This document shows, in pieces, positions 3,563-55,734 of a DNA stretch of 64,000 nucleotides. A program made the position numbers and the translations under genes. The stretch's first letter is position 1. Every line of letters starts with the position of its first letter. Where the stretch lies: NCBI GenBank assembly GCA_001692895.1, contig KV748182.1, positions 3,910,341-3,974,340 on the forward strand, given 5' to 3'. Below the pieces are notes generated by a model. The model had not been told where the DNA came from and searched no databases. It worked only from the letters and a program-made list of their open reading frames with translations. The DNA comes from Cenococcum geophilum 1.58 (lineage: Eukaryota; Ascomycota; Dothideomycetes; Gloniales; Gloniaceae).

Positions 3563-3564
3563 TA

Positions 3565-5981
3565 GGTCACGAAATATAGCAGTAGGTAAAGCAGCTATAG
3601 GACCCGCAAATACCTCAGACAAAGAGATAATTAATATTTTAACCCCCTAGGCAGAGCTTATAGTAGCTAATACTAAAATTAAATGGCTATAAGAACTGCT
3701 TAAAACTAGAGACACCCCTATATCTAATAATAACCTATTAGATAGACTTGCTATAGTTCTTAAGGCCCTAGCCTAGCGCTTCGTATTATTAAGATCCGCG
3801 AAGGTTATAGACCCCCTACTACTTATAGACGGGACCGATCCTATATTTAATAATTAGAAGCTTTAACTATAGGATAAGCTTAAAGTTAATAAAGATTATT
3901 TCCCTAACGACCGAGCTAAGATAGCCTATATCTTTGGCCGCACTAGTAGAGACACCTAGACGTACCTACGTCCGCGATATACTGCAGACTTAGTAGATCC
4001 CTTCGTCTTAGAAGAAGAAATAATTAACGACTTATCTTCTATTTATAAGGAACTCTTTTAAGGTATAGAATATCTACCTTAATTATAAAAGTCTAAATAT
4101 AAAAACAATAGAGACCTTTTCGGCCTTCTAGACCCGCTTTTTATACTTAGCTAGATAAGCCTAGATTCCCTAGGAAGACCTACTACTAGACCTCTTTAAT
4201 AAGCTTACCCTAGAACTATAGTAGGCTATACTACTAGCTTTTACTACTAAATAAACGTTAAAAGAACTTATAGACTACTGCCTAGCTATTAACTAAGGCC
4301 TCTATTAAATTAAGGTATAAGCTAACCGGATAAAGGCTAGGAATCCCTTAAAGTAAGCTATAAGTAATATAAGAACGGCCTATAATACCTAGTATAACCT
4401 ATAATACCTACCGCGTAGGCTATATAGCTGGCCGCCAACCTAGTAACTAGTTATATAGCTAGCCCTACCGCGGGCCAAGCGTTTACTTAGCCTACCTATA
4501 GCGACCCTTATATATAGGCCCTAAGTAACTAAGGAGCTTACTTCTTATATAGCTAGAAAAACTATATTATAAGAGACTGCTTAATAAAAGTAAAAGCGAA
4601 CGAGGTTTTATTAATCTAGGAGAATAGTATAAAGTTAGAAAAAGAGGAACCCTAGAGAAAAACTCCTCTCTAGGGTTAAAAGGGATTAATATATTATATG
4701 TTAATCTAGGACGGCTAATTAGTGGAAAAAGCTATACTATTTATTATACTTTATTTTATAATAGATATTAAGTTTTAACCTCTACTTTAGCTAACTCTAG
4801 AGCGAATATATTTACCCTAATAGATACCTAGTATACTATAAAGCTAGCTAACTTTCTTAATATACCTATAGAAGATCTGCCTAAACCAATTCCTATTAGC
4901 GGGTATAACGGATAGGTAGGGCAACCTATTATAAGTATTTTACGAATATACCTCTATATTAATAGACAAAGGTAGTATAATATCCCCATCCTTATTATAG
5001 ACCTTAGAAGCTATAATATAATCTTAGGGAGGAAATAGCTAGCCTATTTAGGCTTATAGCTTAATATATAGAATAGACGGCTTATATAGCCTAAAACTAT
5101 ACCCCTAACACTTTCCTTTATAAAAGAAATTAGTCTTATAATAGAAAGTCTTATACAGCCGTAGATAAATACTATTTACTAGGCCGATGTAATATATAGG
5201 GACTAGGCTTTTAAGAAGGATATACAGCTTAATCCGTAATAGATCTATATACTATAACGCCCCTAGACCGCCTATATTACGCCACCCATACTAGAGACTT
5301 AGGAAGTTAGTAGTAGCCTACCTAAGCCCCCTATAGAGAACTTAGGCCCTATATAGCTATAAAGGAGGGCTAGGAATATTAAATAATATACTAAACTAAT
5401 AGACTAGAAGGATAACTTATAGAAAATAGAATATAAGTTAAGGAAGACTATAAACCCTATACTATAAAATACGGCCTAATAAATATCCGTAAAGAAGCCT
5501 ACGGGCCTCCCACTAGTTAATATCTACTATATTAGCGCTATAGGATTCTACTAGAACTTAGTTTAGCCTAATACTATTACCTTTATAACTAGCTTATATA
5601 AAATTAATTAAATAATTAAAGAGAAAGAAACCCTAGCCTAAGAGAAAGGTAAGCTTATAGATAAGGAGCTAGTAGAATAGAAACTGCCCTATTAATACTA
5701 GAAATTTAAAGATACCTTCTCTAAAGCAACGTCTAATATACTTCCACCTTACTAACCATATAACTATAAGATTAAGATTAAGCTAGATAAGGAAGATACC
5801 CTAGGCTATAGCCCCCTTTAATAGCAATCTACTACTAAACTATATGCCACTAAGTAGTATCTTATTAATAACCTAGATAGGGCTTTATTAAGCCTAGTTA
5901 AGCCCCTTTTAACTTACCTATATTTTTTACTAAAAAGCTAAATAGAGAACTTTGTTTCTATATTAATTATTAGAAGCTTAA
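3565..5981 (+). pseudogene. Outer Ty3/gypsy element G1, left part: gag, protease, start of reverse transcriptase
   Basis: The frame is full of TAG/TAA at expected CAG/CAA sites. Recognisable pieces are a gag core (about 3830-4330; RAKIAYIFGRTS), a poor zinc-knuckle region near 4540-4590, an aspartic-protease domain (about 4780-5100; NSRANIFTLIDT, then YNIILGRK), the pre-RT linker (5690-5760; KDTFSKA) and the first RT segment (FTKKLNRELCF region, 5920-5980). The gag start is missing at 3565. The frame stops at 5981, where the copia element C1 is inserted, and resumes at 26643. It is inactive. Confidence 0.85.
5977..5981. repeat. Target-site duplication of C1, left copy (CTTAA)
   Basis: CTTAA lies immediately before the C1 left LTR and recurs at 26638-26642 just after the right LTR. 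Removing C1 and one copy restores a continuous gypsy RT reading frame across the junction, which confirms the boundary. Confidence 0.9.
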
Positions 5982-37589: not shown

Positions 37590-38205
<616 letters not shown>

Positions 38206-38235: not shown

Positions 38236-38789
38236 GCGCTTCTTGTCGCTATGGAGCATACACCAGGGGATTCTCCGCTTCCCTTCGCAACCAAAGAGGC
38301 GACGATATTGCATAGCCTGTGTGAATCAATGAGTCTCGGCCCTATCAAGCTCAGCCTGCGCATAAAAGATGTCATATCACATTTGCTGTGATGCCAGATA
38401 TTTCATTTTGCTGGCCATGGCTGTACAGATGACATTGACCCATCCAAAAGCCATTTGCTTCTTGAGAGTGGGAAGGATGATCCGCTAATGCTAGAAGTCT
38501 TCTAGAGATGGATATCCGGCAATACGCACCGTTTCTCGCCTATCTCTCGGCTTGTGGTACCAGTCAATTCAGAGATGAAAGGTCCGTGGAGGAGAGCATT
38601 CACCTGATCAGTGCCTTCCAACTAGCAGGGTTTCGGCACGTTATTGGCACTCTGTGGAAGGTCAATGATGAGTTATGTGTGGACATGGCAAGAATCATGT
38701 ATGAAGAGATGAGAGATGGAGGCATGACAGACGAATCTATGTGTTGGGGCTTCATAAAGCTACTAGAGAGCTTCGGAATTGTTGGCTAA
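38236..38789 (+). pseudogene. CHAT-domain protease relic
   Basis: C-terminal CHAT domain in two frames. The first part reads LLVAMEHTPGDSPLPFATKE, then the His motif IFHFAGHGCTDDIDPSKSHL near 38400-38457. The second (38508-38789) reads FLAYLSACGTSQF, the Cys motif, then LISAFQLAGFRHVIGTLWKV. Stops near 38390 and 38504 and a frameshift before 38508 break it, and the N-terminal TPR part is absent. It follows the Dim1 fragment directly, so the junction is a rearrangement. Family members carry TPR-like repeats before CHAT, as in the intact gene at 52279. Confidence 0.85.
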
Positions 38790-39046
38790 ATATGTCATCA
38801 AAAGCCAGACGTGGAAGCACACCAGTCAAGGAGACAAGCGTTCCTTTAGTCGAGGACCAGACGAGAACTAGGAATGCAAGTGACAGGAATTGAAGAGATC
38901 ATATGATGCTGAGGTTCTTTATTCCATCTGACGGCGAGGATGACGAAAAGATAGGATCATTACACTGGATTCCGTATGTTCATTTTGGTGTATAATTCAT
39001 AGCCAATTCAGCAATGCATCAGCCGGTAAAACGTATCATCAATATC

Positions 39047-40996
39047 TTATGTGATATACGTGTGGACCATGAAATTCAGTGCAGCCCAATCCTCTGGTTC
39101 AAGATTACCACCATCTCGGCTAGTTGTGCTAGTTTCGTTCCGCTTGGCTAGGTCACCGAGTTTAGGTAACTCCAGTAAGTCAAATGAAGTCGGCTGGGAG
39201 GTAATAAAGACTTTGAGAATGTCTTCGCACCAACGGTGCTTTTTCTTCATCTCATATGGGACACCCGTTTTCAGCGCCTTCTTCATCATTCCTAGGAAAT
39301 TCTCGCTATCATGCCGAGGAGGAATAACTTCATAACTCCCGCAGTAAATATTCTGTACTTCCTGAAAAGGATCCAAGCAATAAACATGGACATAGAGCTC
39401 CTTGGCTCCTTTGTTTTCCACCTCTAAATGAAACGCTTCACACTCTTGAACATTTACCAGAGATCCTGGATTATGAATGTTTCCGGAGACATCGATGATT
39501 CGAACGTTGAACGACTCTCGAAAAGAAGGTGTCTGTGCCTCGTTGGTCAGTTCTTTGACCAATTTGAACTTAGCCAGGTGCTCTATGGTGTCAGAAATAC
39601 GGTAGACGTCCGTTTGAGCTTGCGGCATTGCAGGTAGATTGACGATCCTCTGATCAAACTGATCCAGGATCTCGTATTCCTTCTCGCTATTCAGTATAAC
39701 ATGAAAACAACTTGGATTCCCCTTAGTGTCGATATGAGCATCAAGTGATCGTTCTTTTAAAGACGCCAGCAATTCATCCCGACTTGGAAGGTTAGCAGCG
39801 AGTCGTATCGGGAACTTGTGAAGAGAGAATCGGGTAAGGGGCTTTGCGAGCCATCCTGTTTGAATGTGGATGAACGTCGTGCCTACTAACTCTAGATTCG
39901 AGGTGAGAGCTCTGGTATGGGTTACCTTAGAAACCGCTGTGTTTTCTTTCAAGCTTGAGTCGGGATCTGTGCAAGTAAACGGGAATAGGGCAAACCGGTC
40001 GCCATTGCAAATACCGTGGGCTTGACCAGCTTGCAGTTGAAGGCTCCCGTTCTGTTTCTTGATGATTGGGATAAGAGTTGTGTCGCTCTGGAAGCTGACA
40101 GGTCCAAAGAAGCCTTGGTCCTTGTTCCCATAAAGTGCAGGGCTTTGTTCCACTGAGGATCTCTCGAATCCAGCACACAAGTGCTTGTAAATATCTCGAT
40201 GTTGTCTCCCAAGACCACCTGGTTCATTTAAGATTCTATGCAGAAAATAAGACAAAGCTCCATGTTTCTTTTTGTCTTCGGTTTCGAATTCACGCGCCTC
40301 TTGGTCAGGACCACAAGCGGCGAGTATTGCGTATCCATCTGGCTTGATCAGCCAGTTTAGGCGCATGGAAGCGTCCCGGCTCGCTGGAGTGCCAGTTCCA
40401 AGTTTGAGGTGTCTCTCAAAGTCCAGAGCATCTTGTGGGAACCTCGTATCGTTCTCAGCGTCGTAAGAGACAAAACGGACATTATCATCACGACGGTAGA
40501 CACTCGCAGAGAAACAACAGTCAAGGACAAGGGTGAGTACCAATCCCTTATTAACCATGGCATTAAGCCAAAAAGCTAGTATTGGGCCCCAAAGACATTT
40601 CACTTTGCTCTCTTCTCTTCCATCGAGCAAAACCAGCGCCAGGTCTCCTGTTGACTTGTTGGAGAATTCACCGTATGGATTTCCTCGGGTGCCATGTCCA
40701 GAAAAATGAATATAAACATAGTCTCCGGTATTTGCCTGATTTTTGACCCTCTCGAGGGCCGAAATCACATTATTGTATGTTGGCCTGGGCATCGGGTCTA
40801 CGGGTAGACTGGGCGAGTGTGCACCACCGGAATCAGCTGTCGTGAATATCTGTATCTGAACGGGGTTCACTGCTCCTTCCAGATATTTCTTAATGTTTTG
40901 GACATCTTGCACGCAACCTTTCAAAGGCTTGTCTGGATAAGTGTTGATCCCGATCAATATCGCGTAATGTTTGAGGACAGTATTCTGAATATCCAT
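39047..40996 (-). CDS. Caspase-domain (peptidase C14) protein, 649 aa
   Basis: Intact single-exon frame. The N-terminal caspase fold begins HYAILIGINTYPDKPLKGC (residues 10-28). The catalytic His is H101 in YIHFSGHGTR and the catalytic Cys is probably C161 in LVLDCCFSASVYR, where metacaspases usually have DCCHSG. The p10-like part includes GYAILAACGPDQEAREF (about 225) and HGALSYFLHRIL (about 250). Residues 320-649 form a beta-rich C-terminal region (LEVENKGAKELYVHVYCLDP) common in long fungal C14 proteins and similar to DUF4384-type domains. There is no signal peptide or TM segment. It converges on the CHAT relic and shows no RIP stops, so it is probably expressed. Likely a cytosolic protease in cell death or recognition; the substrate is unknown. 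Confidence 0.9.
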   Translation of the reverse strand: MDIQNTVLKHYAILIGINTYPDKPLKGCVQDVQNIKKYLEGAVNPVQIQIFTTADSGGAHSPSLPVDPMPRPTYNNVISALERVKNQANTGDYVYIHFSGHGTRGNPYGEFSNKSTGDLALVLLDGREESKVKCLWGPILAFWLNAMVNKGLVLTLVLDCCFSASVYRRDDNVRFVSYDAENDTRFPQDALDFERHLKLGTGTPASRDASMRLNWLIKPDGYAILAACGPDQEAREFETEDKKKHGALSYFLHRILNEPGGLGRQHRDIYKHLCAGFERSSVEQSPALYGNKDQGFFGPVSFQSDTTLIPIIKKQNGSLQLQAGQAHGICNGDRFALFPFTCTDPDSSLKENTAVSKVTHTRALTSNLELVGTTFIHIQTGWLAKPLTRFSLHKFPIRLAANLPSRDELLASLKERSLDAHIDTKGNPSCFHVILNSEKEYEILDQFDQRIVNLPAMPQAQTDVYRISDTIEHLAKFKLVKELTNEAQTPSFRESFNVRIIDVSGNIHNPGSLVNVQECEAFHLEVENKGAKELYVHVYCLDPFQEVQNIYCGSYEVIPPRHDSENFLGMMKKALKTGVPYEMKKKHRWCEDILKVFITSQPTSFDLLELPKLGDLAKRNETSTTSRDGGNLEPEDWAALNFMVHTYIT

Positions 40997-41472
40997 TGTC
41001 CAAATGAAGTCAGGGAGGGCCCCAAGAGCTTATAAGCCACAAGGAGAGTGTGCAGCCAGCATTGAATGGGAGAAAGGGTTCAAGTAAGTTAAGAGGAGGA
41101 ATAGAAACCTTAGATAAAGTACAGAGCAAAAGATCGTCTACAGGGTGTCGACAAGGTGATTTGAAGTGAACTCAGTCGAGCTATCGTGGTGAATGGCCGG
41201 GAAGCAGCCGAGGCAGTGGGAAACTAGGCGCTCATCTTCAAGCGGCTTCCTTGCAAAGTCGCAGCTGGGCACCACAGTTAGGCAACAATCTGCAAGGCGT
41301 ACAGTGTCACGACCGGCAAATTTGCGATGCAGAGAAAAGAGACTGTCAGAGTGGCGAAGTGCATTTGAGACAGCAAGGCTACAAATAAGACAGGGTACAG
41401 GTTGCATAAACATTTAATAGCTACCGCTGTGATGGTCACCTTCGAACCAGAGACCAAATGGACCCAATATTT
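40997..41472. other. 5' flank of the caspase gene
   Basis: Normal-composition sequence between the caspase ATG and the end of the small pseudogene. Short frames on both strands (such as 41413-41138, minus, 91 codons) match nothing I know and overlap one another. It probably holds the caspase promoter and the 3' end of the next relic. Confidence 0.5.
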
Positions 41473-41832
41473 TCACACAGCTTCCAAGCAATCTGTTTTT
41501 ACCTCTTCGCCATTCTTAACGGCCTCCCCGTTTTCAAGGCTCACAGTATACCTTCCAGCGGAGGGAACGGAGGCGATAATAAAAGGCCCCTCGCGAGTTC
41601 CGTCAGCGTTAAGCAAATACACCTTGTCTCCTACATGAAATTCTGGTCTCTACAAGATGTTTTTCAGTAAGGCTGTCTGATTCTCATTCAGGCCACGAAC
41701 CTGGGTATAAGTTGTGACAGAAGGGCGCTTGCCAACTTCCGTAAAGTTGAGATTTTGGTCACTGATCCCGAAGTATTAATACAACGTCGGCTACAGAAAA
41801 GCTAGCAATACGAACCCTTCGGAAGCAGACAT
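41473..41832 (-). pseudogene. Small 119-codon gene with three nonsense changes
   Basis: ATG at 41832 opens a frame (MSASEGFVLLAFL...) that keeps one phase to a TGA at 41475-41473, with no indels. It is broken by TAG, TAA and TAG, all at positions where CAG/CAA would fit (codons 14, 19 and about 56), the signature of CpA to TpA change. The C-terminal half reads RPEFHVGDKVYLLNADGT, then REGPFIIASVPSAGRYTVSL, a small beta-rich SH3/chromo-like module that I associate with fungal proteins of recognition loci. It is divergent from the DUF6594-like gene across a 400-bp spacer. The family assignment is from memory of the motif and moderate only. Confidence 0.7.
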
Positions 41833-42232
41833 ATTGTAATAACCGAAGGTATTTCAGTGGTTAAGTTGGCCTGCCGTGAGAGGATTGTGACGGGAGTGCT
41901 TGGGTCACCAATACCTTATAGGTGAGGGACATGCTTTTATAGCCTTACTGCCGAACTTGACACTATCAGAAAAGACCTCAATAAAGGCGCTTGAATGCGC
42001 CTTCAAAGACGCCTTGTTGACTTACCCGTAAGCGGTCAAAGAGGCGTACGGTATGCACGCATTTGTTGGCAGTGTACATCATCAACGTGACAGATTTTAA
42101 TTGGTGTCCTCACACCTACCTAGCACGTCAGCCTCATTCAAGATCGCTGATACTATTATGCTAGGCAAAACCTTCTATGATACAAATCGCACCATCTAGC
42201 TCGATTTTTCTAAGATAAAGATCGATGTTGAG
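41833..42232. promoter_or_regulatory. Divergent intergenic region
   Basis: 400 bp between the start codons of the small pseudogene (minus) and the DUF6594-like gene (plus), so probably a shared promoter region. It contains the hairpin AAGGCGC TTGAAT GCGCCTT near 41983-42002. No clear TATA box was identified. Confidence 0.5.
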
Positions 42233-43442
42233 ATGAAACCACTCAAATCATGTCTTCCGCTTTGGAAACCCTCGAACACAAGTATAAACCAAAGGCACGA
42301 CAAGAGAAGTATCTCTTCCCCCTCACACAAATACTTCGACTAACACTGTCTAGTCGAGGATTATAAACTCGGATATCCCCGTTTCACTGCGCTTATTTCA
42401 GCATATGACCATTTCTTCTTATGCCGGCGTTTCAACAAGCTTCGGGCTCGAATCCTTTTGTTAAAGCAGGACAGGTTGTCTATGCTCGAACAGAGGCTAG
42501 AACAGATTGATCAACAAGAGACCTCTCTTCTCTTTCTTGGAAAGAGTCGGTGTGATAAGAACACGGACCGGACATCTCTTCTATCGGATATTGAATCATG
42601 TCTTGCAGATTACGGTATATGCGGAGATTAGCTAATCATAACAACGAGTTAACGGAAGGCAGACCAGTTCGCCGAAAGAACCTACCGGATGTTGAGTTTC
42701 GGCAGTGCTCAGAGAAGAGATGTTAAGAGCCTGCAGAACTGGCTTGACGGTACCGGCTGTCTAGCTAGGGAAGAAACGGCGTACCTTGCACATCATAGGG
42801 AGCTAGCTTCCTTGGCTCCAGTGGCGGACAGTGCGGTAATACAGCTCGAAGCTTGGGTAGAAGACAAACTGATTCGTTTCTATCGAGGATTTCGAGATGT
42901 AAGAGAAAACCCTGAATCATTATAGTAGACTAACGATACTAGTGGAGCCGTTTTTATGATGTTTCAACCGATGCAAACGTATATATGTATTCCGGACAAC
43001 TGATTAAACGAATTGCTAAAGTATTACTCTTGTTCTTAGTAACAGTTATTCTGCTGATGCCAGTCGTCATTTGCAATATCATTAAAACTACCTCGATTCG
43101 GATAGTTATTGTCATGCTGTCTACGATCCTTTTTCTCCTCATACTCTCTGGATTGACAAAGTCGAGGACCATGCTGTCTACGATCCTTTTTCTCCTCATA
43201 CTCTCTGGATTGACAAAGTCGAGGACCATGCTGTCTACGATCCTTTTTCTCCTCATACTCTCTGGATTGACAAAGTCGAGGACTATAGAGCTGATTCTCG
43301 CAGCTGCAACGTGAGTATCGTCATATCTTGTCCTGTTTTGATAGCAAGATGTCACCGCTGATATTAGGCTGATACGATTCCTGTTAGATACGCTACGGTT
43401 CTCATCGTTTTTGTCTCTGGTACCAGTGGGGTTCAAAGCTAG
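42233..43442 (+). CDS. DUF6594-like multi-pass membrane protein, five exons, 331 aa
   Basis: Exons 42233-42308, 42354-42614, 42663-42898, 42943-43310 and 43388-43442 join in phase (996 nt, 331 codons plus stop). Introns are 44-77 nt with GT...AG ends (GTATCT, GTATAT, GTAAGA, GTGAGT donors). The ATG at 42233 is chosen because the ATG at 42250 gives the wrong phase at the first junction. The soluble N-terminal part has FLCRRFNKLRARILLLKQDR, an EQRLEQIDQQE segment and SLQNWLDGTG, as in fungal DUF6594 proteins. A hydrophobic C-terminal part follows: TM helix about 218-241, a second hydrophobic stretch 249-305 made of three identical 19-residue units, and a last helix ATYATVLIVFVSG. No stop or RIP damage is seen. 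Function not known. Confidence 0.85.
43114..43284 (+). repeat. 57-bp tandem triplication inside the DUF6594-like gene
   Basis: Three head-to-tail copies (43114, 43171, 43228) identical except for the last base. Each encodes MLSTILFLLILSGLTKSRT, one hydrophobic segment plus a basic turn. The copy number keeps the reading frame and adds 38 residues compared with one copy. Confidence 0.97.
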
Positions 43443-44298
43443 GAAATTTTCAGAATGACGAAGGCGTAAAGCGGGCGGCACCACAGCTGCAAGGACTAAA
43501 TGCGGTTATACGAGACTACCAGAGAGCTGCTACTGGAATGGAGAATATTAATGACGTGCAAAGAGGCATCCAGCTGGCTGAAAGTTAATCAGTCAGCTGG
43601 AAACATTCCATTGAACCGTTTACGATAGTAATCATGTAAAGCTCGAGATTCATCGCGGCCTACGAAATAATGAGCATAAGCTACTTTACTGTCTTTTCAT
43701 TTGGAATCTGATTTTCTTCAAAAAGGCTTATTTTGCTATCCAATGGTCAAAGCCATCAATCACTTCTCGCGACCAGTGGAGGGGTCCAGCAGCTAATGGC
43801 GGTTATGCACGTTAAGTCGACTTGCATTTAGGTGTCCTGCATGTGCCCCATCTTCGGAAACAGCCTTTGGGAATGCCTGCCTTATTACTGGCCGGTGAGC
43901 CTCACTCTGCACTTCGCTCGCGAAATGCAGATGGTTGCTCCCTACCCAGTTCTTCCGTGCCACCCGACACATTGATTTGACCCTAACAATCCATCCCCAA
44001 ATCGCCAGCAGCACTCTGCACAGAAAGTATTGTGGGTGCCCTGATAATGTAAGCTAGGTAGGTAGGTATCGGAGGTCAGGGTTAGGCTTGGCATAACCTC
44101 GGGTTACGTACGAGCCCCTAAGGTCCTTGATATATCGTCCAAATATCGCACCCCCCCTAGGTGGTGGCCCCTACTTTTCGGACGCGTTTTTGAGGCCTAG
44201 GTTAGTACTGGGTTAGTATAGAGGGCCTCAGCGCGCCTTCGACCTCATTGTCGCCTCGACAATCTATTTTCCAACCCTCTACTGTTCTTGTGCCCGCG
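43443..44298. other. Intergenic region into Crypton flank
   Basis: No convincing gene. A minus-strand frame at 44014-43793 (73 codons) has no recognised domain. From about 44040 the sequence (AGGTAGGTAGGTAT, then the C-rich stretch near 44150) is probably the leader of the Crypton-like element. Confidence 0.45.
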
Positions 44299-47015
44299 AT
44301 GGCTCGCGTAGGGCTTCTGATTTTATATAGAAAGGCCTACTGTAATTCTAATTCTATAATATAGAGCTCTTTTCTTCTTCTTCTATAATATTTACGCGTT
44401 TAGTGGCTTTATTTACCCGCGCCGCGCTTACGTGTCTCCCCCTTACCTTTTACGGATATAGAGTCTTTTAAGAATCTTCTTACCCTACGGTCTACTTTAC
44501 GGCTAAAGGAAGCCCCTTTAGCCTCCCCCCCCTATAGCCTCTAGAGCGAATTTAAGGCCTAAATAGCGCGGCTATAGGATATTTATAAGGCCTAGCGCTT
44601 AAAGAATACTATAAGGGCGTATAAGCTAAAGTAGAAAAAGTAGGAAGACTAGTACGCGAGACTGGAAGGCAATATAAACGGCGCCTAGGTAACGGAAGAT
44701 AAGCTTTACCTATTTTTAGAGTAGTAAGTTATTAACTAAGAATCATAGGCTGCTGGCTATTAAAAACGCAAGTTAAAACGGAAAGAGATGTGGAAAGATG
44801 GTAAGTGGGCGAAGAAGAGGTAGAAGATGGCTAAGGTGGGAGGGCAGCTAGGGGGAAGGCAGCCGTAGGGGCAGCCGTAGCTGTAGGGGAAGAAGCTATA
44901 AAGGACGAGGAAGGAGAGATATGGGATGAGGAGGCCCTAGACGCCCTTTTTAATAAGATAGTCCGATACTTAGTTATAAATAGCTACGTCTCCGCTATTA
45001 CTGAGCTTTATATATGGTAATTGGAAGGCAAGGCCTCACAGCCGCTATGGGGGGCGAAGCTCTTAGTGATACTAGACAGCGTTCGCCGCGACAAGGACCG
45101 GATTTAACGCGTTAACTTTATTAACTGAGGCCTATTTATAATTACTGGCGGCTATAACGTTAAAGGGCTTAAAAGGGCGATTATTTGGTGCTGGGAGACG
45201 GGCTCTAAAATGCCGGGTTTAGTTAAGTCTTACCTTTAAACTATAGCTAAGTATTTATTAGGTTTGTATATTACTAGTCTATACGGCTACCGTTTTTTAA
45301 CCTATTCCTTTTCTTAGGCTATACTACCGTTACCTAGGGTGAAAGTAGACGGGATATTTAGCTTACTAACCTTGCCTTTATTAAACTAGAGAATAAAGGG
45401 CCTAAACTAGACGAGCTAGCGCTATATATAATTATATTAATAATATAGGGGAAGCAGAATTAGCACGGCAAGGTTAAGTATATGGGCTGTATGTATAATA
45501 CTAACCCTATCCTCTGCCCTCTCTCTATAATAGCCTTCTACTTTTTTAACCGCTAGGGTAAAGACGGCGCTAAGAGCTTCCCATCCTTTTAGTAGCTAAA
45601 GGACTACTATAACCTATATATCTTCCCTAGTAGCATTAAAGTACCGCAACAGCCGCTAAGCTATTATACGCAGTTTAAATAGAATAAGAAGATATTCTAG
45701 GGGGTAGGGATTTACTTAAAAGAGAAAACCTATAGCGTCTATAAGCAGAGCGTCTGGCACGCTAAGCTTAGCGGCGTTAAGGAGACCTAAATTAGATAGG
45801 CTGGATGCTGGAATACGGACGCGATAATGGGAGCCTACCTTAGCTACCTACTCCGTGCGTTTATGTGGTTGATCGCCGGCTTCCTAAAGGAGGGAAAGGG
45901 CTACTTTCTTTCCTGCGCGCGGAAGGTGCTAGAGGAGGCCCTCTGCTTAAAGATATGGCCTAAGACTAATGTCTGGCTAAAACATATAGAGACCTACTAC
46001 CTAGACAGGGCCGATAATAAGGTCGTACGGCTTGACCTTACGGGCTTAGGATTTTTACGCCTCCTCTGTGCGCTTAGGGTAATCCTATTATAGGACTTAG
46101 TAATCCTATATAAGTAGTTCCCGCTCTACCCCCTATAGAAGGACTCCCTTTTTAGCTATAAGGAGTACTAGAGGTTTGCTATATAGGTAGAAAGCTCGCT
46201 AGCTAACGTAGTTACGCTAAATAAACTAATAATGTGGAAATACTGGCCTGCTTATAAGGCCGTAGCTAAGCTAAAATATAAGGCCGCAATCTTAGAGATT
46301 AAGGGGGTTTAGTTACACGTATATATGATCTTAGAACGCCTTAGCGAGATGGAAAGGTTATTAGTATTATTCGTACCTGCACCTATATAGATCTAGTAAG
46401 GAAAGACGGGTATTTAGATAGGGCCTACGGAGTCCGTATATCTACCGTTTACTATAATATTTACTATAACGTCTACTATATCCGCGCCACCTGCTTAGCT
46501 ATCTACTATATCCGCACCGCCCGCTTAGCTGTCTACTATATCCGCACCCCCCGCTTCGCTATCTGCTATATCCGCACCCCCCNCTTAGCTGTCTACTATA
46601 TCCGCACCCCCCGCTTAGCTATCTACTATATCCGCGCCGCCCCCGCTAGCGTAGGCATAAGTAGATACTTAACTACCTCTCCTATTTATCCTTAACCTAT
46701 AGGCGCCGCTAAGAAAATATAAGATGCTTTGGGGCGGTAATTCGGTATTCTAGCTCTAGGCTGAGTGGACTTTAGGGCTAGTAGGTAGGCCGTTAATTGA
46801 AGCTCTTGATCGCTGCTGGGGGGCGCGCTAGCGGGTTAATGGCGAGGCTATGTTCTATAGCCGTTGCTGTAGGATAATTAAGGATATAAGACGGCGCGTA
46901 GAAGACGGTATGGTAAGAGATAAGAGATAGGCTATTAACTAGCTGGAGCAGCTATGGGGCCGGCGTTCTTTAGATTGGCTTTATAAGAATATCTAACTGC
47001 TAGCTTTTGGGGTAG
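44299..47015 (+). pseudogene. Crypton-like element: Ndc10-type recombinase relic with GCR1_C domain
   Basis: ATG at 44299 opens a frame with many TAR stops. The central part (about 45050-46100) matches the Ndc10/CBF3-like core of fungal Cryptons: the NYINN segment near 45430, SVWHAKLSGVKET near 45747, WNTDAMGAYLSYLLRAFM-like sequence at 45812-45860, then EGKGYFLSCARKVLEEALC. The C-terminus (about 46715-46965) matches the GCR1_C DNA-binding domain (KMLWGGNSVF; the WTLGLVGRP segment; VNGEAMFYSRCCRIIKDI). Cryptons move by a tyrosine recombinase without TIRs, so the ends are not definable here. A Pro/Ser/Thr linker carries the 30-bp repeat at 46471. Inactive. Confidence 0.75.
46471..46650 (+). 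repeat. Six 30-bp coding repeats in the Crypton linker
   Basis: Exactly six units of 30 bp (TCTACTATATCCGCACCGCC core), encoding ten-residue repeats of the type STISAPPAQL. Variation is one to five bases per unit. One ambiguous base is at 46583. Confidence 0.95.
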
Positions 47016-47077
47016 GGGAGAGAGGGAAAGGCTCTGTATTAAATAGTATATATATATATATAATACTATCTTATTAT

Positions 47078-47325
47078 AGGACTACTATAGTAACTGAGAC
47101 GCCTTAATATAGGACTGCACTGCAGTAACTAAGACGTCTTAATATAGGACTACTGCAGTGACTAAGACGCCTTAATATAAGACTACACTGTAGTGACTGA
47201 GACGCCTGAATATAAGACTATACTATAGTGACTAAGACGCCTTAATGCAGGACTATATTTTAGCGACCGAGACGTCTTAATATAGGACTATATTATAGTA
47301 ACTGAGACGCCTTAATATAGGAATG
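47078..47325. repeat. 35-bp minisatellite, seven units
   Basis: Unit TAACTGAGACGCCTTAATAT then AGGACTACACTGTAG. Starts are at 47091, 47126, 47159, 47194, 47229, 47264 and 47299, so spacing is 35 bp with one 33-bp unit. The core GTAGTGACTGAGACGCC resembles the arm of the hairpin at 51341. Confidence 0.9.
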
Positions 47326-47568
47326 GCACGCGTTTGGGTGTTTGAAATTTAGAGCAATATTACGCGACTGTCCAGAAGTGTACCGATCTAACTTAAATTA
47401 TGTACCTTTTCGCCCAAAATCGCGTGCAAAGGTACTCGGGGGCGGTCGCTGCGCGACCTCGTGCGGGGTTCGCGCCAATTATCAGCAGGGGTGGCCCTAA
47501 CCTCGTATTAACCTGGGCCGTAACCGAGCCAAATGACCCCCCCCGATATGTGATAGGTAGTGATGCCT
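47323..47568. other. GC-rich segment between Crypton and MULE
   Basis: Unmutated, GC-rich sequence directly left of the MULE target duplication. It was contiguous with the 5' flank of the TPR-CHAT gene before the MULE inserted, so it may hold displaced promoter DNA of that gene. No ORF is supported. Confidence 0.45.
47560..47568. repeat. MULE target-site duplication, left copy
   Basis: GTGATGCCT, perfectly repeated at 52139-52147. Nine bases is the usual MULE duplication length. Confidence 0.92.
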
Positions 47569-47621
47569 CGGCCAAGATCCGGGCAGTAACACTTGGCAGT
47601 AACTTTACTGCCCGAATCTTT
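47569..47621 (+). repeat. MULE left TIR (53 bp)
   Basis: Begins CGGCCAAGATCCGGGCAGTA. It contains an internal inverted pair GGGCAGTAA / TTACTGCCC, a likely transposase-binding site. Confidence 0.95.
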
Positions 47622-47890
47622 CGATCGGCGGCGGTTTAGCAGGCGGTCAGGGCAGCCAAGGCACTACTCGGGCACCTATTTTACTAGTAAAAGCCATACA
47701 AATGCAATGTTCACCAAATACCCCCCACCCCGGCAGCCCCCGCAGGCTGCCGCACGGTTAAACGGAGGTGCACGTACATACTTTCGTTACCGCCAAGATT
47801 CGTCAATCAACACCGCTTAATCGCCACCCAAGCTCTACATAAATACGTGGCAATGGCTCCCTACGCTCTACACCAAGATTCTCATCCAAA

Positions 47891-50800
47891 ATGGACGCTC
47901 CTACCTCAGTTACTCCTGCCGCCGCGCCCTAGGAAACTCTGTCAGTTAAATGGAAGGCTTACGAGAAGCTAAGAAATGAGAACGCGATTGCGGCAATGCA
48001 GGTAGCTATTTAATTAATCCCTCCTAAACACTTGCTTGAGCCGGAAGCTGGTAAGCACTACGAAACTTAAAACTTAGTAGTACAGCGCTTTAATAACTAC
48101 GCGTTCTCTTAAGGCCGCGAGCTCTATATAAGTGGTGGCTGAATTATATAGCGACTCTATATGAAATGTAAAGCTTATGGTGGAGAGACTTGTAACTATT
48201 AAAAGCTTACTAAGGATGACCGCTAGCGGCAGGATAAGGAAGGTTAATTACTTAGGCGGCTAAATAGAAAGATTTTAAAGAAGAATTGTCCCTATTACGT
48301 CTCTACTTACAAGTATATAGACGAAGGAGTTATTACCTAGGTTATAAAAGTCAATAATGGTATATATACCTGCGTAGCTATACTAAATCCTCTCTCTCTT
48401 CTAAAATACAGGAGCCGTTGGCTATAGTATGCAGCAACTATAGCGGAAGCCCTTAATTACTAAGCTGCCAATGCATCCGTAGGAGAGGTACGGCGGCTTC
48501 TATCCGCTAACAACTTGCCACTAATAAGTAGTCGCGACTACTGGAATATGGGAGGGTAAGTTCGTTAAGGTAAATAGATAGGAGGTGTAATAAAGCAGGA
48601 GCGATTTACGGAGCTCCATTCGGCTCTCCAACAAGCCGGCTTCTATACTTGCTTGCGTATCTATACGGAAGTTAATACTAAAATAGGTAAGCTTACTATC
48701 TCATTTAATAAGATCTAAGAGGTGGTAAGATTAAGGCAATAGCAAGATTAGGGCGATTATAATATCTAAGCAATAACAGGACCCCATTAAGAAGAACATT
48801 CCCCTTTATCTAGATTACTTGCCGGCCTTCTAAATAGGCGTATCTTATAGCTTTAAAGAAAGAACAGGAAAGGAATAAGTTACTACAGTAGATTCGGGTT
48901 TATTGGATAAACGACCTTCGGCCCTAATCCCGGCAGCATAAATAATGTGGCATTTTCCGGTATATCTAAGTTACAAATTAGTATGGTAGGATCCACTAAA
49001 TACAATAATCTAACCGTGCGGTAGCATGTCTCGGAGTACTTTGGTATTAAAGCGCCTGGGATATTTATTTGCTATCTACCACTGACTTAATACTAACTTA
49101 TTCTTCTCCCTAGGTAACCCTACCTCTTAAGTCCTTGTTTAACTTACCTTTGCAACTCCTAAATAAATTGCTTTTATACGTTGATTTACCTCTAGCTTCT
49201 ATATTTATACTAATACGACATTCTCTACAAACCAGCTCCGCATGCCGCTATTAACTATAATAACAACAATAAATACCGGCAAGACAGTTCTAATTATGCA
49301 CTTAATTATTATATCTAAGGCTAAGCAGGTGTTTAAAGAGATGCACAACTTTATAAATAAGTTTATATTCTACGATATACCCGTACTAAAAGTTTATATT
49401 GGCGATTAGGGAGCTAGCTTTATATTAGCTACCAAAAAGCTTATCTAGGAGGATATCCAGATGCAACTCTATGAGTGGCACGTTGTTAAAAATATTAAGA
49501 CTATATTAGTTAATAGTAGTAAGTACTTAAAGGAGAAACGGAAGACATTAGAGGACTTAATTTGGGCATATACTAAGTTAGAGAGTCCCGCCAAACTTGA
49601 AGCCAATTATAATATACTTATACGTTAACTTAACTAGCCAGAGGCTCTTAAAATTAAAGATCACTAGGGCCTAAGGGAGGCCTACTTTAATAGGGCTTAT
49701 ACTTGTCGTTATTGTAATCTCAGTGCCAATACCTTATAGAGGGGTGAATTAATTCACTTGGTGATAAAAGTAAGGTTATATAAGGACCTTACATTGCTAG
49801 AAGTCGTTAATTAGATTAAGTTGGTAATTAATAAAAAGTTTAAGGAGTATAAGAGATTAGAATATAAGGATTATAGGGAGTCTTTCCGGCTTTAAGATAC
49901 TTATATATTTTAGTTACTATAGGGTTAAGTAACTAATAAGGCTATTAGGCTTATATGGGATAAATAGGAAGTCGTTAAATCTAACTATAGACAGTTCGGC
50001 CAGCTCGCTAAGGACAGTAAGAAGTATAGGCCGCTTAAAAGCAATTACGTTATTACTTGCACGTATTAGCGACTCTTAGAGTTCTATATACGAAGATTTA
50101 ATACTAAGGACGGCTATAGTAAATACGGCTGCTATTTAGAGTAAGGCGACTGTAATCTTCCTGTTTGATATAGCCTCCTATATTATTATTAGATGGAAAA
50201 AGCTCTATAGAAATTAGTGTTATTGCCACTGAGCCTTCTTTACCCCTAATAGCTACTTAACGGGCCGTCTACTATTAGATTTAATTAGTAACTAAGTTAT
50301 AATACCTAACTTAGTCCCAACAATAAAGCTATTACTAACGGCAACCGCTTTAGTAATAACGGAGCAGATATAGCGTTAGGTGCGGCAACTGTAGTATATA
50401 ACGCAATTACTAAATTATACCCTACTAAGTAAGCAGAAGTTCTTATAGACTTATTTTAGCGGTAGACTTAACAACTTCTTTTTAAATTTAAAGGGGTGCG
50501 TAGAAAGGATAATATTATACTAGTAGAACTACCTAATCCGGTTTAGACTTTAAAGGTAGAGTTTAAGAAGAAGGGTAAGGCCAATAAGCGTGGTCTTACT
50601 GGCCTTAAGTAAGCTAAGAGGGCTGTAAAGCATAAAGAGTAGGCAAAACAATAGATATCTTAATAGAAGAAGAGGCAGAGATTAGTAGTAGGGGTTTATA
50701 AGGAGCTTGAAATATTATTAAATGCACTACCTGCATTAACTGCACCTGTAAGATTATAGTGCTTACTATAAGCGGCTGTTAATAAGCGGAAACGTTAGTT

Positions 50801-50950
50801 AACCTAGTTATTAACCTTATACGAATCCTCTTAAGAATAACCGTTAATGATGTTAAATATATTCGTCCGTCTATTTGGCTCACTATCTCCTATACTAGTA
50901 TCCTTTAGCCGGGACTCTAAAGATTCCGATAACTCTAACGACTCCCTTAT
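47891..50950 (+). pseudogene. MULE transposase relic
   Basis: ATG at 47891 follows a TATA-like TACATAAATA box near 47834. The first nonsense codon comes at codon 14 (TAG for CAG), and many TAR stops follow. The N-terminal FAR1/WRKY-like zinc region (FNNYAFS.GRELYI; MKCKAYGGETCNY) is at about 48090-48200. The catalytic core at about 49220-49480 has NTNQLRMPLLTI (after the first Asp), KVYIGD.GASFI (second Asp) and the LYEWHVVKNIKT segment with Glu, the DDE arrangement of MULEs. A degraded SWIM-like segment lies near 50060-50180. The transposase is not functional. Confidence 0.85.
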
Positions 50951-51340
50951 ATAGCTAAATACTTAGGACTTTAGGTCGTCGCAATTTGAGACATAAGCTA
51001 TAGTTATTCTACCTACGCGACTAAGTAATTAAGTGCACGGCAGGCTAAGCCTAGTTTGGAAATTATATACTAGCTCAGAGTTAACTAGAGACGTAGCCAT
51101 TTAACGTTATTTTGTAGCTTTAATAAATACGACCGTTCCTAACTAATAGTGGTGATTTATGGCTTACTACGTTACTCTATCCAAGTTACTACCTTACGCT
51201 GTATTTAATATGCATATAAAGAAGTTCTCTATAACTTGGCTAGACCCTGCTACTGATATTAATGATATTAGTGGGGGGTCGTCGATAACGTCCCTACGGC
51301 AAGATTTCTAGCGACACTATTTTTGACGATCGCGATCTCG

Positions 51341-51402
51341 ATTATTTGGGGTGTCTCTGTCACTGTAGTAGCCACTGTAGTGACAGAGACACCCCAAATA
51401 AT
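51341..51402. repeat. Perfect 24-bp-arm hairpin
   Basis: ATTATTTGGGGTGTCTCTGT plus CACT (51341-51364) is the exact inverse of 51379-51402, with a 14-nt spacer. It lies in an unmutated patch of the MULE 3' region. Arms carry GTGTCTCTGTCACT, close to the inverse of the 35-bp minisatellite core at 47078-47325. Confidence 0.95.
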
Positions 51403-52085
51403 TAACACTCCTGAACTTCGACACTACCCCGAGCACTGCGGCTCTCCTGCAGTGACCGAGCAGCCTTAACTTCCTTCTAATACTCGGCGCCGAGTCTCAT
51501 TGCATCGCCGCAGAGCCTCATGAGCCTTATTGCATTACCGCCGAGGCCCTTAGCCTAATTGGGTAGTAGAAGGTTATGGGTTTAGTTCCCATTAGTAGCG
51601 TGTTAAAAATATTAAAAAAAAAGGTTATTTTCTATTAAATTACGTATTAGTAAGGCTTTAAATTGATCATATTGTTCTTATCTTATTTTTAACGCCCTAA
51701 GTCATATTAAACCTATATATTTGCATCGTGGCCCAATGGGCCACTTAAGAACTTCGGGAAAAGTGGTATAATTACGTTGGGCTAGCTCCAAATTAAATTA
51801 AAGCAATTACAGAACTTACTATACCACTACGCCGCGGAGACTTTGCATTATAATACCTGCAATTTGATTGAATTATAACCCCTTCTAAACCTTATAATTA
51901 AATATTTTCACATATAACACTACGCTAAGGCTCACGATGTAGGTGCAGATCACGACTTAAGTATGGCTGAATTGCGACGCCGTAGCTCTGCCAATTAATT
52001 AATATATAGCTCTAAAATTAAGATCTACAACACTAAAAACAAGCTCCAAGCCACTGATTTTACATCGGCAGAATCGAACTTGGCA

Positions 52086-52138
52086 AAAGATTCGGGCAGT
52101 AAAGTTACTGCCAAGTGTTACTGCCCGGATCTTGGCCG
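52086..52138 (-). repeat. MULE right TIR (53 bp)
   Basis: Exact inverse of 47569-47621. Directly followed by GTGATGCCT (52139-52147). Confidence 0.95.
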
Positions 52139-52147
52139 GTGATGCCT
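52139..52147. repeat. MULE target-site duplication, right copy
   Basis: GTGATGCCT, the partner of 47560-47568. Confidence 0.92.
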
Positions 52148-52278
52148 TGCTGCGTCAATGTCCTTCCCCACAGAATCTGTGCCTTAGTCTCCAGCTTGGG
52201 GACACTAATGTGTTGCTCTGCTAACGTCTTTTGTGCTCGTAACCTTTCTCTTTAGCTGGCCTGAACTCTCCTAGTACC

Positions 52279-55200
52279 ATGGCCGAAACGGTGGAGGATT
52301 TGTTGAGCGAAGAATTTCTCCGAAAGCTGGACAAAATACTAGACGCCCTTGTGGTTGAAGTTATGGGCGAAGAGGCGGACAAGGGCTCTGATGAAGAGAC
52401 CGATAGAGATTTCTACAATATTCAAGGCGCGGACGAACAGGAATTGGAGGAAACATGTCTAGAGTTTGACTACGAGAACCCATCCACACTTTTCATGTTC
52501 TCAAAACGTCTGTACAACAGATACCGGACCTCCGAAGACGTCTCAATACGCCCTGAAAACCTCCTCAAAACAGCCATCATGTGCAATCGTGCAGCCCTAA
52601 AAAACTCGCCAACAGAGTTTGATCGCATTACAATTCTATACCGCCTCGTGCCGATGCTCAAGGACCTGTTCGATTATACTGGAGACAAGACGGACCTAGA
52701 CGAGGCTATCGAGGAAGCGAAAGAACTATTGGCCATGTCAAAAAGGTTGTCTGATGATGAGGAGGGGCAGGATATGCGCTTGGCTGCCATGGACGAGCTC
52801 GCCGCTGCGCTCGATCTGCGATATTCGGAGTACAATGGTGATCAGGATCTCAACGAGGCGTTCCAATTGGTCCAGGAGGCCCTCATATCGATTGACGATC
52901 TTACCGATCGGCTTGCCGAACGTCGGGCATCGCTCTTGATCATCCTTGCCCAGTTACATGAGAGATTCTATGAGAGAACCCGAAGCCTGTCTGAGATTGA
53001 CAAGGCCATTAAAGCTACAGAGGAGGTTGTTCGCTTGATGCCAAAAGACAGCCCGAACTGGGCGAGAGTTTTGAGCAATCTCAGCCGCAGGTTCCACAGC
53101 AAGTACGATCAGAGCCGCAAATTATCAGATCTCACCGAGGCCGTGAAACATGCTCGGGCAGCGGCTGATGTCAACCCGAGATTAGAAGATGTCCTCGCAG
53201 AATGCTTGAGCAGCCTTTCGGCCTCACTCGCGAGTCGATACGAAAGGACCAGAGACAGCAGAGATATCAATGATGCCAGAGATGCAGCACAGAGAGCCGT
53301 GGATCTGCCAGGTCAGAAAGGATTCGCCAGGGCAGCGTGGTTGAATGACCTTGTGAGGGTGTACTGCAGCCTGTATGTGTGTGAAGGGGAATTGGCCGAC
53401 GTGGATCAAGCCATCTCGCTTGCAAGACAGGCAGTTGACTTGTCCCCGAGGGGCGCCTACAAAAGGCTGGTCTCTTTACACCTGCTGTTTGTTGCCCTCG
53501 CTAAAAAATTCGAACGAAAACGAGATAATACAAGCCTCGAGGAAGCTACAGAAGCGGTGCAAGACATCATAACTTCCGCACCGAAAACGGTTCCTTCCCG
53601 CGCTCTTGCGTATGAGGCCCTGGGTTGGTTACTTCAGTGCCGTTACGAGGAAAGCCGCAACAGATTAGACCTCGACGAGGCTGTCAAAGCAGCTAGGCAA
53701 TCAGTCAAATTGGCACAAAAGGACGATCCAGTCTACGCCAGCGCCGTGAGCAACCTCGGATCCAGGCTGATCTGTCTGTACCAAACGAGTGGGGTGGAGG
53801 CTGATCTAGATAGTGCCATCGAACACTTCCGTCAAGCTGTACACCTGACGCCGAATGATGACAGTGATGCGGTGGTCCGCATTCAAAACCTTGCTACTGG
53901 ATTAAAGAATCGATGCATTCGCACCGGCGAGCAAGACAGGAATGAGGCGCTCGCTCTGTTCACAGAAGCAAGTCGCAATCCCCATGGCCTTCCGCTCAAT
54001 CGAATTGAGTGTGCTCGAGGTGCCATTGCAATCCTAGTTCATAAAAAAGATTGGACTGAGGCAGGTACGCTCGCGGAGGAGGCACTGAAGCTTGTGCCCC
54101 TAGCGTGTCGTCGCTATATGAGCCACGAGGACCAGCAGTACGTTATCATTCAAGTTTGCGGTCTTGCTGCCGATGCGGCGTCACTGAGTCTCTTGGAGAG
54201 ACAAGTCGAAAAGGCTCTGCAGCAGCTCGAGTTTGGCCGTGGGATCCTCCTCGGTTACATGATCGAGGATCGAAGCGACCTGATGGCACTCAGAAAAGAC
54301 CACGAGGACCTAGCGAGACGCTACGAATTCCTTCGCCTTAGGGTGAATGCGGAGGAGCTTGAGGGCTATCGCACAACAACGCTTCCCGGGGATATCGCTG
54401 GAGAGTGGAGCGAGGGGATTCAGGGTCAACTGATAAGCGAATGGAGAGAAGTAATTGCGAGAGAACTCGCCAAGGATCGAAGGGAAGCTCTCCAAGAGAT
54501 TCAGGACTGTGTCGATAAGATCCGGACTGTTCGGGGGTACGAACGGTTCCAGATGGCTCCAGAGATGGACGAGTTGAAAGAGCAGGCCGTCGAGGGTCCA
54601 ATTGTGGTGGTGAATATCTCTGAAATCAGTAGTGATGCCATCATCCTCACGCTCAATGGTGCCAAGGCACTTCGCCTTTCCGTGCCGCCACTAGAAAACG
54701 CGCCTCTCTCTATCCGACAGAAGTACTGGGCGCACGCATCGATACGTAGGAGGGCTGTCGATGACGGCAACCGGCCTATCATGAGCGCAGACGACCCTCA
54801 GACTGATTCGAGCTCCAACGAATACTCGTGGCTGTGGACCAGTTGCGTGAAACCGGTGCTCGACCAGCTCGAGGCCATGGGTTTCCTGAGCTCCGATCTC
54901 GCCCAGCCCCCTCGTGTTTGGTGGATCGGTTCTGGCATCGCCAGTTCTTTTCCGTTTCACGCCGCTGGCGTTGACTTCGGGAGCAAATCGGTAGAGAACA
55001 CGCTCAACAGAGTCGTCCCCTCGTACACTACCACCATCAAGGCCCTCGCCTATTCCCGATCCCGTGCTTCTATGTATACCGTGGAAGACGCCATGGATAA
55101 CAAGGTCGATTCCATTCTCCTCGTCACCATGCCGACAACGCCCGGCCAGAGGGATCTGCCCGGCGTCGACGCCGAGAGTGCCGCCATCCAAAAGGCCTGC

Positions 55201-55734
55201 AAGGGGTTTTATTCTATTGATGAATTACGGCTCCGAACCGCCAGAGACGTTCTCAAGAAGCTGACCGAGTCAAGCGTCACTCACTTTGCGTGCCACGGAT
55301 CATCGGATCCCACGGAACCCTTTAAAAGCCACCTACTGCTGCAAAAGGAAGTCAACGGCAAACTAGCAGTCGACAAGCTGACCATGTCGGCGATTTCGAA
55401 AGAGGCAGCAGAGCGGCGGTTGCTGATTGCTTTCCTTTCGGCATGCTCGACGGCGGAGATCAAGGCGAGCCAGTTCGCCGACGAGGGTCTCCATCTCGCT
55501 AGCGCTTTCCAGATGGCCGGATTCGAACATGTTATAGGAGCCCTCTGGTCGGCTAACGATGCCGCCTGCGCTCGCATCGCAGAAGAGTTCTACAGAGAGC
55601 TGATTAGGAGTGGCACGGGGCAGCTGACGCCGAGAGTGATAGCAGAGGCGCTGCGGCATGCAGTAATGTGCGTTCGTGCTGAGCCACACAGTAAGCCTTC
55701 TCTATGGGCACCTTTCATTCTTCTTGGTGCCTGA
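52279..55734 (+). CDS. TPR-CHAT protein, 1151 aa
   Basis: Intact intronless frame; ATG context ACCATGG. Residues 1-65 are acidic. About ten TPR-like helical units spaced about 47 residues apart follow (unit cores near 140, 191, 239, 286, 331, 375, 421, 465, 511 and 555; for example DLDEAIEEAKELL and DLDEAVKAARQSVKL). Residues 610-830 are helical, and the CHAT domain fills about 840-1151. The catalytic dyad is H1006 in THFACHGSSDP and C1056 in FLSACSTAEIK, followed by HLASAFQMAGFEHVIGALW. CHAT is a caspase/separase-like (clan CD) protease fold; in bacteria TPR-CHAT proteins act in defence by cleaving partners once triggered. No RIP stops. The MULE end lies 140 bp upstream, so the promoter may be altered. 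Target unknown. Confidence 0.93.
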   Translation: MAETVEDLLSEEFLRKLDKILDALVVEVMGEEADKGSDEETDRDFYNIQGADEQELEETCLEFDYENPSTLFMFSKRLYNRYRTSEDVSIRPENLLKTAIMCNRAALKNSPTEFDRITILYRLVPMLKDLFDYTGDKTDLDEAIEEAKELLAMSKRLSDDEEGQDMRLAAMDELAAALDLRYSEYNGDQDLNEAFQLVQEALISIDDLTDRLAERRASLLIILAQLHERFYERTRSLSEIDKAIKATEEVVRLMPKDSPNWARVLSNLSRRFHSKYDQSRKLSDLTEAVKHARAAADVNPRLEDVLAECLSSLSASLASRYERTRDSRDINDARDAAQRAVDLPGQKGFARAAWLNDLVRVYCSLYVCEGELADVDQAISLARQAVDLSPRGAYKRLVSLHLLFVALAKKFERKRDNTSLEEATEAVQDIITSAPKTVPSRALAYEALGWLLQCRYEESRNRLDLDEAVKAARQSVKLAQKDDPVYASAVSNLGSRLICLYQTSGVEADLDSAIEHFRQAVHLTPNDDSDAVVRIQNLATGLKNRCIRTGEQDRNEALALFTEASRNPHGLPLNRIECARGAIAILVHKKDWTEAGTLAEEALKLVPLACRRYMSHEDQQYVIIQVCGLAADAASLSLLERQVEKALQQLEFGRGILLGYMIEDRSDLMALRKDHEDLARRYEFLRLRVNAEELEGYRTTTLPGDIAGEWSEGIQGQLISEWREVIARELAKDRREALQEIQDCVDKIRTVRGYERFQMAPEMDELKEQAVEGPIVVVNISEISSDAIILTLNGAKALRLSVPPLENAPLSIRQKYWAHASIRRRAVDDGNRPIMSADDPQTDSSSNEYSWLWTSCVKPVLDQLEAMGFLSSDLAQPPRVWWIGSGIASSFPFHAAGVDFGSKSVENTLNRVVPSYTTTIKALAYSRSRASMYTVEDAMDNKVDSILLVTMPTTPGQRDLPGVDAESAAIQKACKGFYSIDELRLRTARDVLKKLTESSVTHFACHGSSDPTEPFKSHLLLQKEVNGKLAVDKLTMSAISKEAAERRLLIAFLSACSTAEIKASQFADEGLHLASAFQMAGFEHVIGALWSANDAACARIAEEFYRELIRSGTGQLTPRVIAEALRHAVMCVRAEPHSKPSLWAPFILLGA

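Follow-up and report, generated by a model that had tools for sequence, protein, structure and literature searches.

A recurring CHAT, C14 and DUF6594 gene module in Cenococcum geophilum and its possible role in protease-gated membrane damage

The window analysed here is a 64,000-nucleotide stretch of Cenococcum geophilum 1.58 (contig KV748182.1, labelled C7, positions 3910341-3974340; genome of 177 Mb in 162 contigs). It carries a gene island in which a caspase-like C14 protease gene lies among CHAT protease genes, a small beta-rich open reading frame (ORF) and a DUF6594 membrane protein gene. Judged by sequence comparison, this cluster is a real recurring gene module whose parts are ordinary and whose combination is unusual. 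The genes, their catalytic dyads, their linkage and order at a second locus on contig C61, and a small gene confined to these two clusters support the module. The likeliest reading, held tentatively and at somewhat under an even chance, is that the island is one partly decayed and rearranged copy of a four-gene module (TPR-CHAT, C14, small ORF, DUF6594), in which the TPR-CHAT protease would act on C14 and C14 on a membrane effector. The features of the island, in window positions, are as follows.

38236-38790, + strand: CHAT relic, catalytic C-terminal part only, with a broken frame; in a tree group with the C61 TPR-CHAT
39047-40996, - strand: C14 metacaspase-like protease of 649 amino acids, with His101/Cys161 and an unnamed, mostly beta C-terminal region of about 340 amino acids
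41473-41649, - strand: 58-residue core of a small beta-rich ORF, whose sole other detectable copy adjoins the C61 C14
42233-43442, + strand: DUF6594 membrane protein of 331 amino acids, with modelled exons at 42233-42308, 42354-42614, 42663-42898, 42943-43310 and 43388-43442
43113-43283, + strand: 57-bp unit in 3.0 identical copies, inside the DUF6594 transmembrane region
52279-55734, + strand: TPR-CHAT sensor-like protease of 1151 amino acids, with His1006/Cys1056; in a tree group with a copy on contig C45, not with the C61 copy

Starting from CHAT, both C7 and C61 read CHAT, C14, small ORF and DUF6594 in that order, with some genes inverted. The module proteins of the two loci share 34-59% identity; the C14 proteins are 34% identical over their full length and form a pair in the C14 tree (100/100), and the small ORF products are 47% identical. 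With 30 of the 53 DUF6594 loci compared, the C7 and C61 DUF6594 genes are mutual best matches (58.6 and 59.3% identity in exon 2, 45% further on), and the next match reaches at most 42.5%. The four genes have thus stayed linked despite far divergence of the proteins. A recent segmental duplication was rejected, as blastn gives only short matches of 68-75% at the gene positions. When the 177 Mb genome was searched with a 70-residue query at E up to 0.1, the small ORF was found at two places only, C61 itself and C7; very divergent copies would escape this search. Beyond its module, the C61 locus carries a nonribosomal peptide synthetase-type gene at 381-4010 (L058), with AMP-binding, condensation and PP-binding domains.

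Chance proximity of the cluster genes was rejected by genome-wide counts with HET genes as the control, for which 150 of 439 candidates were scored; a second control, MFS, with 9 of 390 candidates scored, was not used. Family searches of the genome returned 6 C14, 17 CHAT and 93 DUF6594 matches, the last merging to 53 loci. A search with the TPR-CHAT protein returned 48 matches, which merge with the family search to 28 CHAT loci. CHAT lies within 10 kb of 3 of the 6 C14 matches (C7, C61 and C45) as against 3 of the 150 HET matches (p 6e-4). For DUF6594 at the same distance, the counts are 2 of the 6 (C7 and C61) as against 2 of the 150 (p 0.007). Both p values come from Fisher tests that count C7 and C61 as independent. 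Four of the 53 DUF6594 loci are within 30 kb of CHAT (C7, C61 and two at C45).

An intact caspase-domain gene had been described in an earlier note on this DNA, and the C14 gene is indeed a long single-exon ORF, open throughout, with both catalytic residues at the positions given there. It belongs to peptidase family C14 by its Pfam score (Peptidase_C14, E 7.9e-18, 65.4 bits against a cut-off of 21.4), its His/Cys dyad and metacaspases as its top Foldseek matches. The catalytic His and Cys columns of C14 and of TPR-CHAT are invariant across all rows of alignments A1 (3 rows), A3 (10) and A4 (8). The predicted structure (predicted local distance difference test, pLDDT, 60; modest confidence) matches metacaspase-9 in Foldseek; it also matches the MALT1 paracaspase over a longer alignment but with a poor root-mean-square deviation. 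In a viral fold search with the same model, giant-virus caspase-like proteins rank first, as expected for the fold. The mostly beta C-terminal half was assigned no name; a DUF4384-like domain was considered there and rejected, with no Pfam match at E 10. Against the model for EACC1-associated caspases (NF047832) the protein scores 30.5 bits, below the cut-off of 140.

The TPR-CHAT gene, also taken to be intact in the earlier note, is likewise a long single-exon ORF that is open from end to end with both catalytic residues where they were placed (Pfam CHAT, E 2.3e-31, 109.7 bits against a cut-off of 24). TPR matches fall below the cut-off in the full protein, and TPR_2 scores 29.4 against 27 when the N-terminal 807 residues are scanned alone; a CHAT domain with a His/Cys dyad behind TPR-like helical repeats places the protein among TPR-CHATs. 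It has no NACHT or NB-ARC match in Pfam and is not classed as an NLR/STAND receptor. Its predicted structure (pLDDT 58.5, modest confidence) is helical with a caspase-like end, and its structural matches are led by Csx29 and separase, both with low TM-scores. A broken CHAT gene is present as well: the relic keeps about 167 C-terminal residues with both catalytic motifs, its N-terminal part is gone and its frame is interrupted. The CHAT tree has 21 rows, 15 fungal and 6 bacterial, and took in 6 of the 9 prokaryotic CHAT genes located close to C14; C50 and C59 gave no match, and contigs C28, C35, C10, C14 and C73, the second C65 locus and other C45 copies were left out. In this tree, the relic clusters with the CHATs of C61, C116 and C85 (100/98). 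In the window it is therefore the broken relic, and not the intact TPR-CHAT, that corresponds to the CHAT of C61.

The small beta-rich gene had been called broken. This is not clearly so, because its 58-residue core is open; a TAG stands just before the core at a possible intron acceptor. The multi-pass membrane gene is intact as proposed. It is a member of DUF6594 (Pfam PF20237, cut-off 30), with 101 bits at 42374-42904 and 65.4 bits when the ORF enclosing exon 2 is scored, and its five-exon GT-AG model has no stop and contains transmembrane-like segments at residues 209-265 and 304-327. The three identical 57-bp repeats triple one transmembrane block of the protein; they could vary between alleles or be an assembly effect. 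A search for papers on DUF6594, in a literature collection largely without subscription papers, returned none.

A third C14 locus, on C45, has a degraded C14 head to head with a TPR stretch related to TPR-CHAT. TPR-CHAT copies, several of them degraded, are found there at 241-245, 261-264 and 272-276 kb, around the degraded C14 and a gene of a family referred to here as gasdermin-candidate. This family has 8 matches in the genome (C2, C45, C65, C1, C46, C28 and, weakly, C66 and C39). It stands beside the same C14 type at C2 and C45 (0.35 and 0.33 kb away, tail to tail) and elsewhere is a neighbour of TPR-CHATs, which gives the module further support: 5 of the 8 matches are within 3.4 kb of CHAT (C45, C65, C1, C46 and C28), and C66 and C39 have neither C14 nor CHAT nearby. 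In size and CHAT linkage the family is reminiscent of fungal gasdermins. It has no match to known gasdermins in PDB sequences, Pfam, NCBIfam or PADLOC, and because no search ties it to gasdermins it is named no more than a candidate. A gasdermin-candidate gene in the window was rejected, since no member was found by profile in the window or in 11.4 kb of C61 (best E 6.6); protein searches also gave no match on C7 or C61, other gasdermin types not being searched. These arrangements suggest that DUF6594 and the small ORF take the place held elsewhere by the gasdermin-candidate family. A TPR gene head to head with C14 at C2 was also considered and rejected, as the 118-residue ORF there matches no Pfam family and no TPR-CHAT compared.

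The fungal C14 profile reached 55 prokaryotic loci, and in 8 of these the fungal CHAT profile finds a CHAT gene 4-1115 bp upstream of C14 on the same strand (Nostoc, Scytonema, Cyanothece, Leptolyngbya, Anaerolineales, Acidobacteriota, Synergistaceae and Thiohalocapsa). The earlier note had tied its proposal to co-occurrence beyond this genome, and for the protease pair alone such co-occurrence is found, because of these prokaryotic neighbours; the outside comparison covers prokaryotes. Of 60 prokaryotic loci, 24 have another clan CD protease gene no more than 1.5 kb from C14, which in 9 of them is a CHAT; some of these pieces (e.g. L083) could be one split gene, and short contigs may hide others. 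The 60 loci are 54 of the 55 genomic loci (L115 is without an ORF over the threshold) and 6 of 15 plasmid records. The C14 tree has 23 rows and an arbitrary root; it does not include the degraded C45 C14, the metacaspase-like genes that this genome carries at C21 and C4, or the majority of the 55 prokaryotic loci. Its three fungal rows come together at only 82/66, and their nearest relatives are C14s of the cyanobacterial plasmids L118, L119 and L121 (100/98). L118 and L119 adjoin a C14-nSTAND1-WD40 gene and L121 a C14-TIR gene. The PADLOC model 'caspase' matches L118 from end to end, and the PADLOC model 'chat' matches the N-terminus of the protein encoded next to L118. On the plasmids L118, L119 and L122 a C14-nSTAND1 gene comes after the C14 gene, and the two proteases may form a defence pair. 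From these comparisons we infer a bacterial origin for the fungal C14 gene. In the CHAT tree, 12 of the 15 fungal rows, including the C14-linked ones, form one group (96/96) that excludes all 6 bacterial rows as well as C15, C25a and C25b.

Particular prokaryotic loci differ in how closely they resemble the fungal module. Nostoc FACHB-152 (L067), a Scytonema metagenome-assembled genome (L066), Anaerolineales (L069) and an Aulosira plasmid (L123) share with it a TPR-bearing CHAT gene less than 0.5 kb upstream of C14, and the C14s of L066 and L067 align with the fungal C14 profile up to position 618-619 of 672. However, their CHATs lie outside the group of fungal C14-linked CHATs, so the pairing was probably assembled separately. 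In Nostoc carneum (L118), Allocoleopsis (L119) and Calothrix (L121), the C14s group with the fungal C14s and a second clan CD protease is adjacent, but this second protease is a C14 rather than a CHAT and no CHAT is present in the DNA read.

Clave et al. 2022 reportedly give the primary account of fungal CHAT/gasdermin two-gene clusters. These clusters resemble the window in that a TPR-fused CHAT protease is linked to a putative membrane effector (PMC10197012; PMC12881547). Pairs resembling them are possible in this genome at C65, C1, C46 and C28. In contrast, the window and C61 carry C14, the small ORF and DUF6594, and no member of the searched gasdermin-candidate family was found within about 10 kb of their CHATs. 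In P. anserina a TPR-bearing CHAT protease is reported to activate a gasdermin (PMC12881547). Clustering with protease genes is seen for more than 80% of gasdermin genes in fungi (PMC12881547; see also PMC10197012), and 19% of fungal gasdermins are within 10 kb of CHAT genes (PMC10197012). The hetB gene of Aspergillus fumigatus is a CHAT gene that acts in incompatibility, its target being not known (PMC11138114). C14A and CHAT domains have been reported separately in Fonsecaea and relatives (PMC5640708), and bacterial gasdermins are activated by caspase-like proteases (PMC9079055; PMC9612521). The bacterial side is partly known already, because multi-protease conflict systems have been described there (PMC7159879). 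No description of a fungal C14/CHAT/DUF6594 cluster was found in the literature covered, which is largely without subscription papers. The window proteins match no SAVED domain in Pfam scans, unlike the Type III-B SAVED-CHAT system, for which Steens et al. 2024 reportedly describe a proteolytic cascade with a PCaspase step. There, as in the module proposed here, a CHAT protease heads a proteolytic cascade, through which SAVED-CHAT confers immunity (PMC11229360). Structure comparison of the window TPR-CHAT model ranks the TPR-CHAT protein Csx29 of Craspase first (8eey, Foldseek E 1.8e-10, TM 0.20-0.30), whereas the window protein scores 38.5 bits against NCBIfam NF041237, whose cut-off is 300, and is not assigned to that family.

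The island is bordered by DNA with the signature of repeat-induced point mutation (RIP). In a scan of 4-kb windows, this signature is present at 4-36, 44-52 and 56-64 kb and absent from the gene-bearing 36-44 and 52-56 kb. Minisatellites occur at 46472-46643 (30-bp unit) and 47070-47322 (35-bp unit), in the RIP-mutated block that separates DUF6594 from TPR-CHAT. A truncated ribosomal RNA adenine dimethylase fragment (PF00398, E 1.6e-23) adjoins the cluster at 37595-37951. A STAND-type gene at 1887-2396 (- strand) has a weak domain resembling PigL_N/SesA of fungal STAND proteins, under the curated cut-offs.

In the proposed mechanism, the TPR solenoid would sense a non-self or invader signal and the CHAT protease would be switched on and then activate the C14 protease. 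Proteolysis would unlock the DUF6594 membrane protein, which could then harm the membrane and kill the cell, with the small beta-rich protein as a possible regulator. The order TPR-CHAT, C14, DUF6594 is proposed because of the published CHAT/gasdermin and caspase-like precedents and the anatomy of the cluster, and by analogy we infer the direction of the cascade, the cleavage of DUF6594, the cell death and its trigger. The earlier note had already put forward a module of two proteases and a membrane protein; the recurrence that this implies stands, as C61 holds the genes side by side and C45 has a C14 along with TPR-CHAT copies, but its choice of protease partner fares less well. The intact window TPR-CHAT, which lies 11 kb away, joins the 241-kb copy of C45 in the tree (91/92), outside the C61 lineage, and may or may not stand in for the broken CHAT partner. 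Several other observations also weigh against the module and its cascade. The two DUF6594 genes of C45 are degraded, 24-29 kb from C14, and the one compared is not among the nearest matches listed for the module DUF6594; these genes accordingly add little support. By profiles, 36 of the 60 prokaryotic loci are without a second protease, including L120, where Pfam shows one. Taken as a whole, the C14-linked CHATs do not come together in the tree (2 changes, a number as low in 88 of 500 shuffles), and the CHAT/C14 pairing therefore seems to have been put together on more than one occasion instead of being passed on as one unit. Such repeated assembly favours a functional reason for the pairing and speaks against one ancestral operon.

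Other explanations can account for part of this evidence. CHAT and C14 could be parallel activators: each would respond to its own signal and either act on the membrane protein directly or have a substrate different from that of the other, with no CHAT-to-C14 cascade. Beside the gasdermin-candidate family, CHAT occurs without C14 at C65, C1, C46 and C28 in the family searches, and C14 occurs at C2 with no CHAT match in family and TPR-CHAT protein searches, a further point against the cascade. Some bacterial C14s are also partnered with C14-nSTAND1-WD40 or C14-TIR proteins, not CHAT. This account is nevertheless doubtful, as L118, L119 and L121, the nearest bacterial relatives, each sit beside another clan CD protease gene, and two protease types are found at both fungal module loci.

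Linkage could also reflect a defence island only, where immune-type genes share dynamic regions and are duplicated together and C14, CHAT and DUF6594 have no joint function. Defence islands have already been proposed for fungi (PMC10197012), this island is surrounded by RIP-mutated DNA, and C7 and C61 may stem from one ancient duplication. HET is itself mildly linked to CHAT, with 3 of 150 within 10 kb where about 0.5 would be expected if uniform, and therefore an island effect has room. Yet gene order was conserved while the proteins dropped to 34-59% identity, the small ORF is seen only in the two clusters, and among the HET matches scored none comes as close as 30 kb to one of the 6 C14 and one comes within 60 kb, which makes linkage without function an unlikely explanation. 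It is quite improbable that the copy in the window is dead or decaying, with its CHAT partner lost and its membrane segment expanded by a minisatellite, and that the working module is at C61 only. The truncated relic CHAT and the three identical repeats in the transmembrane region point that way, and the degraded C45 locus is an example of decay at such loci, but the frames of C14, DUF6594 and the second TPR-CHAT are open and free of the RIP signature.

The reading preferred here, a partly decayed copy of a four-gene module, can be extended to a new fungal protease-gated death circuit, in which TPR-CHAT would activate a cyanobacterial-type C14 derived from bacteria and C14 would unlock a DUF6594 executioner in the gasdermin slot. 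In this full form the proposal is rather unlikely. The locus and C61 provide a small, concrete gene set in which a second protease and a membrane effector other than a gasdermin may be sought. If the proposal is true, DUF6594, so far a large family of unknown function, would gain one, and fungal cell death would be seen to involve a protease cascade of two steps, comparable in a loose way to the caspase cascades of animals. It would also provide a bacteria-to-fungus link in immune-type protease pairs. Given its recurrence at C61 and the protease pairing in some bacteria, the cluster may work as one cell-death or self/non-self recognition device.

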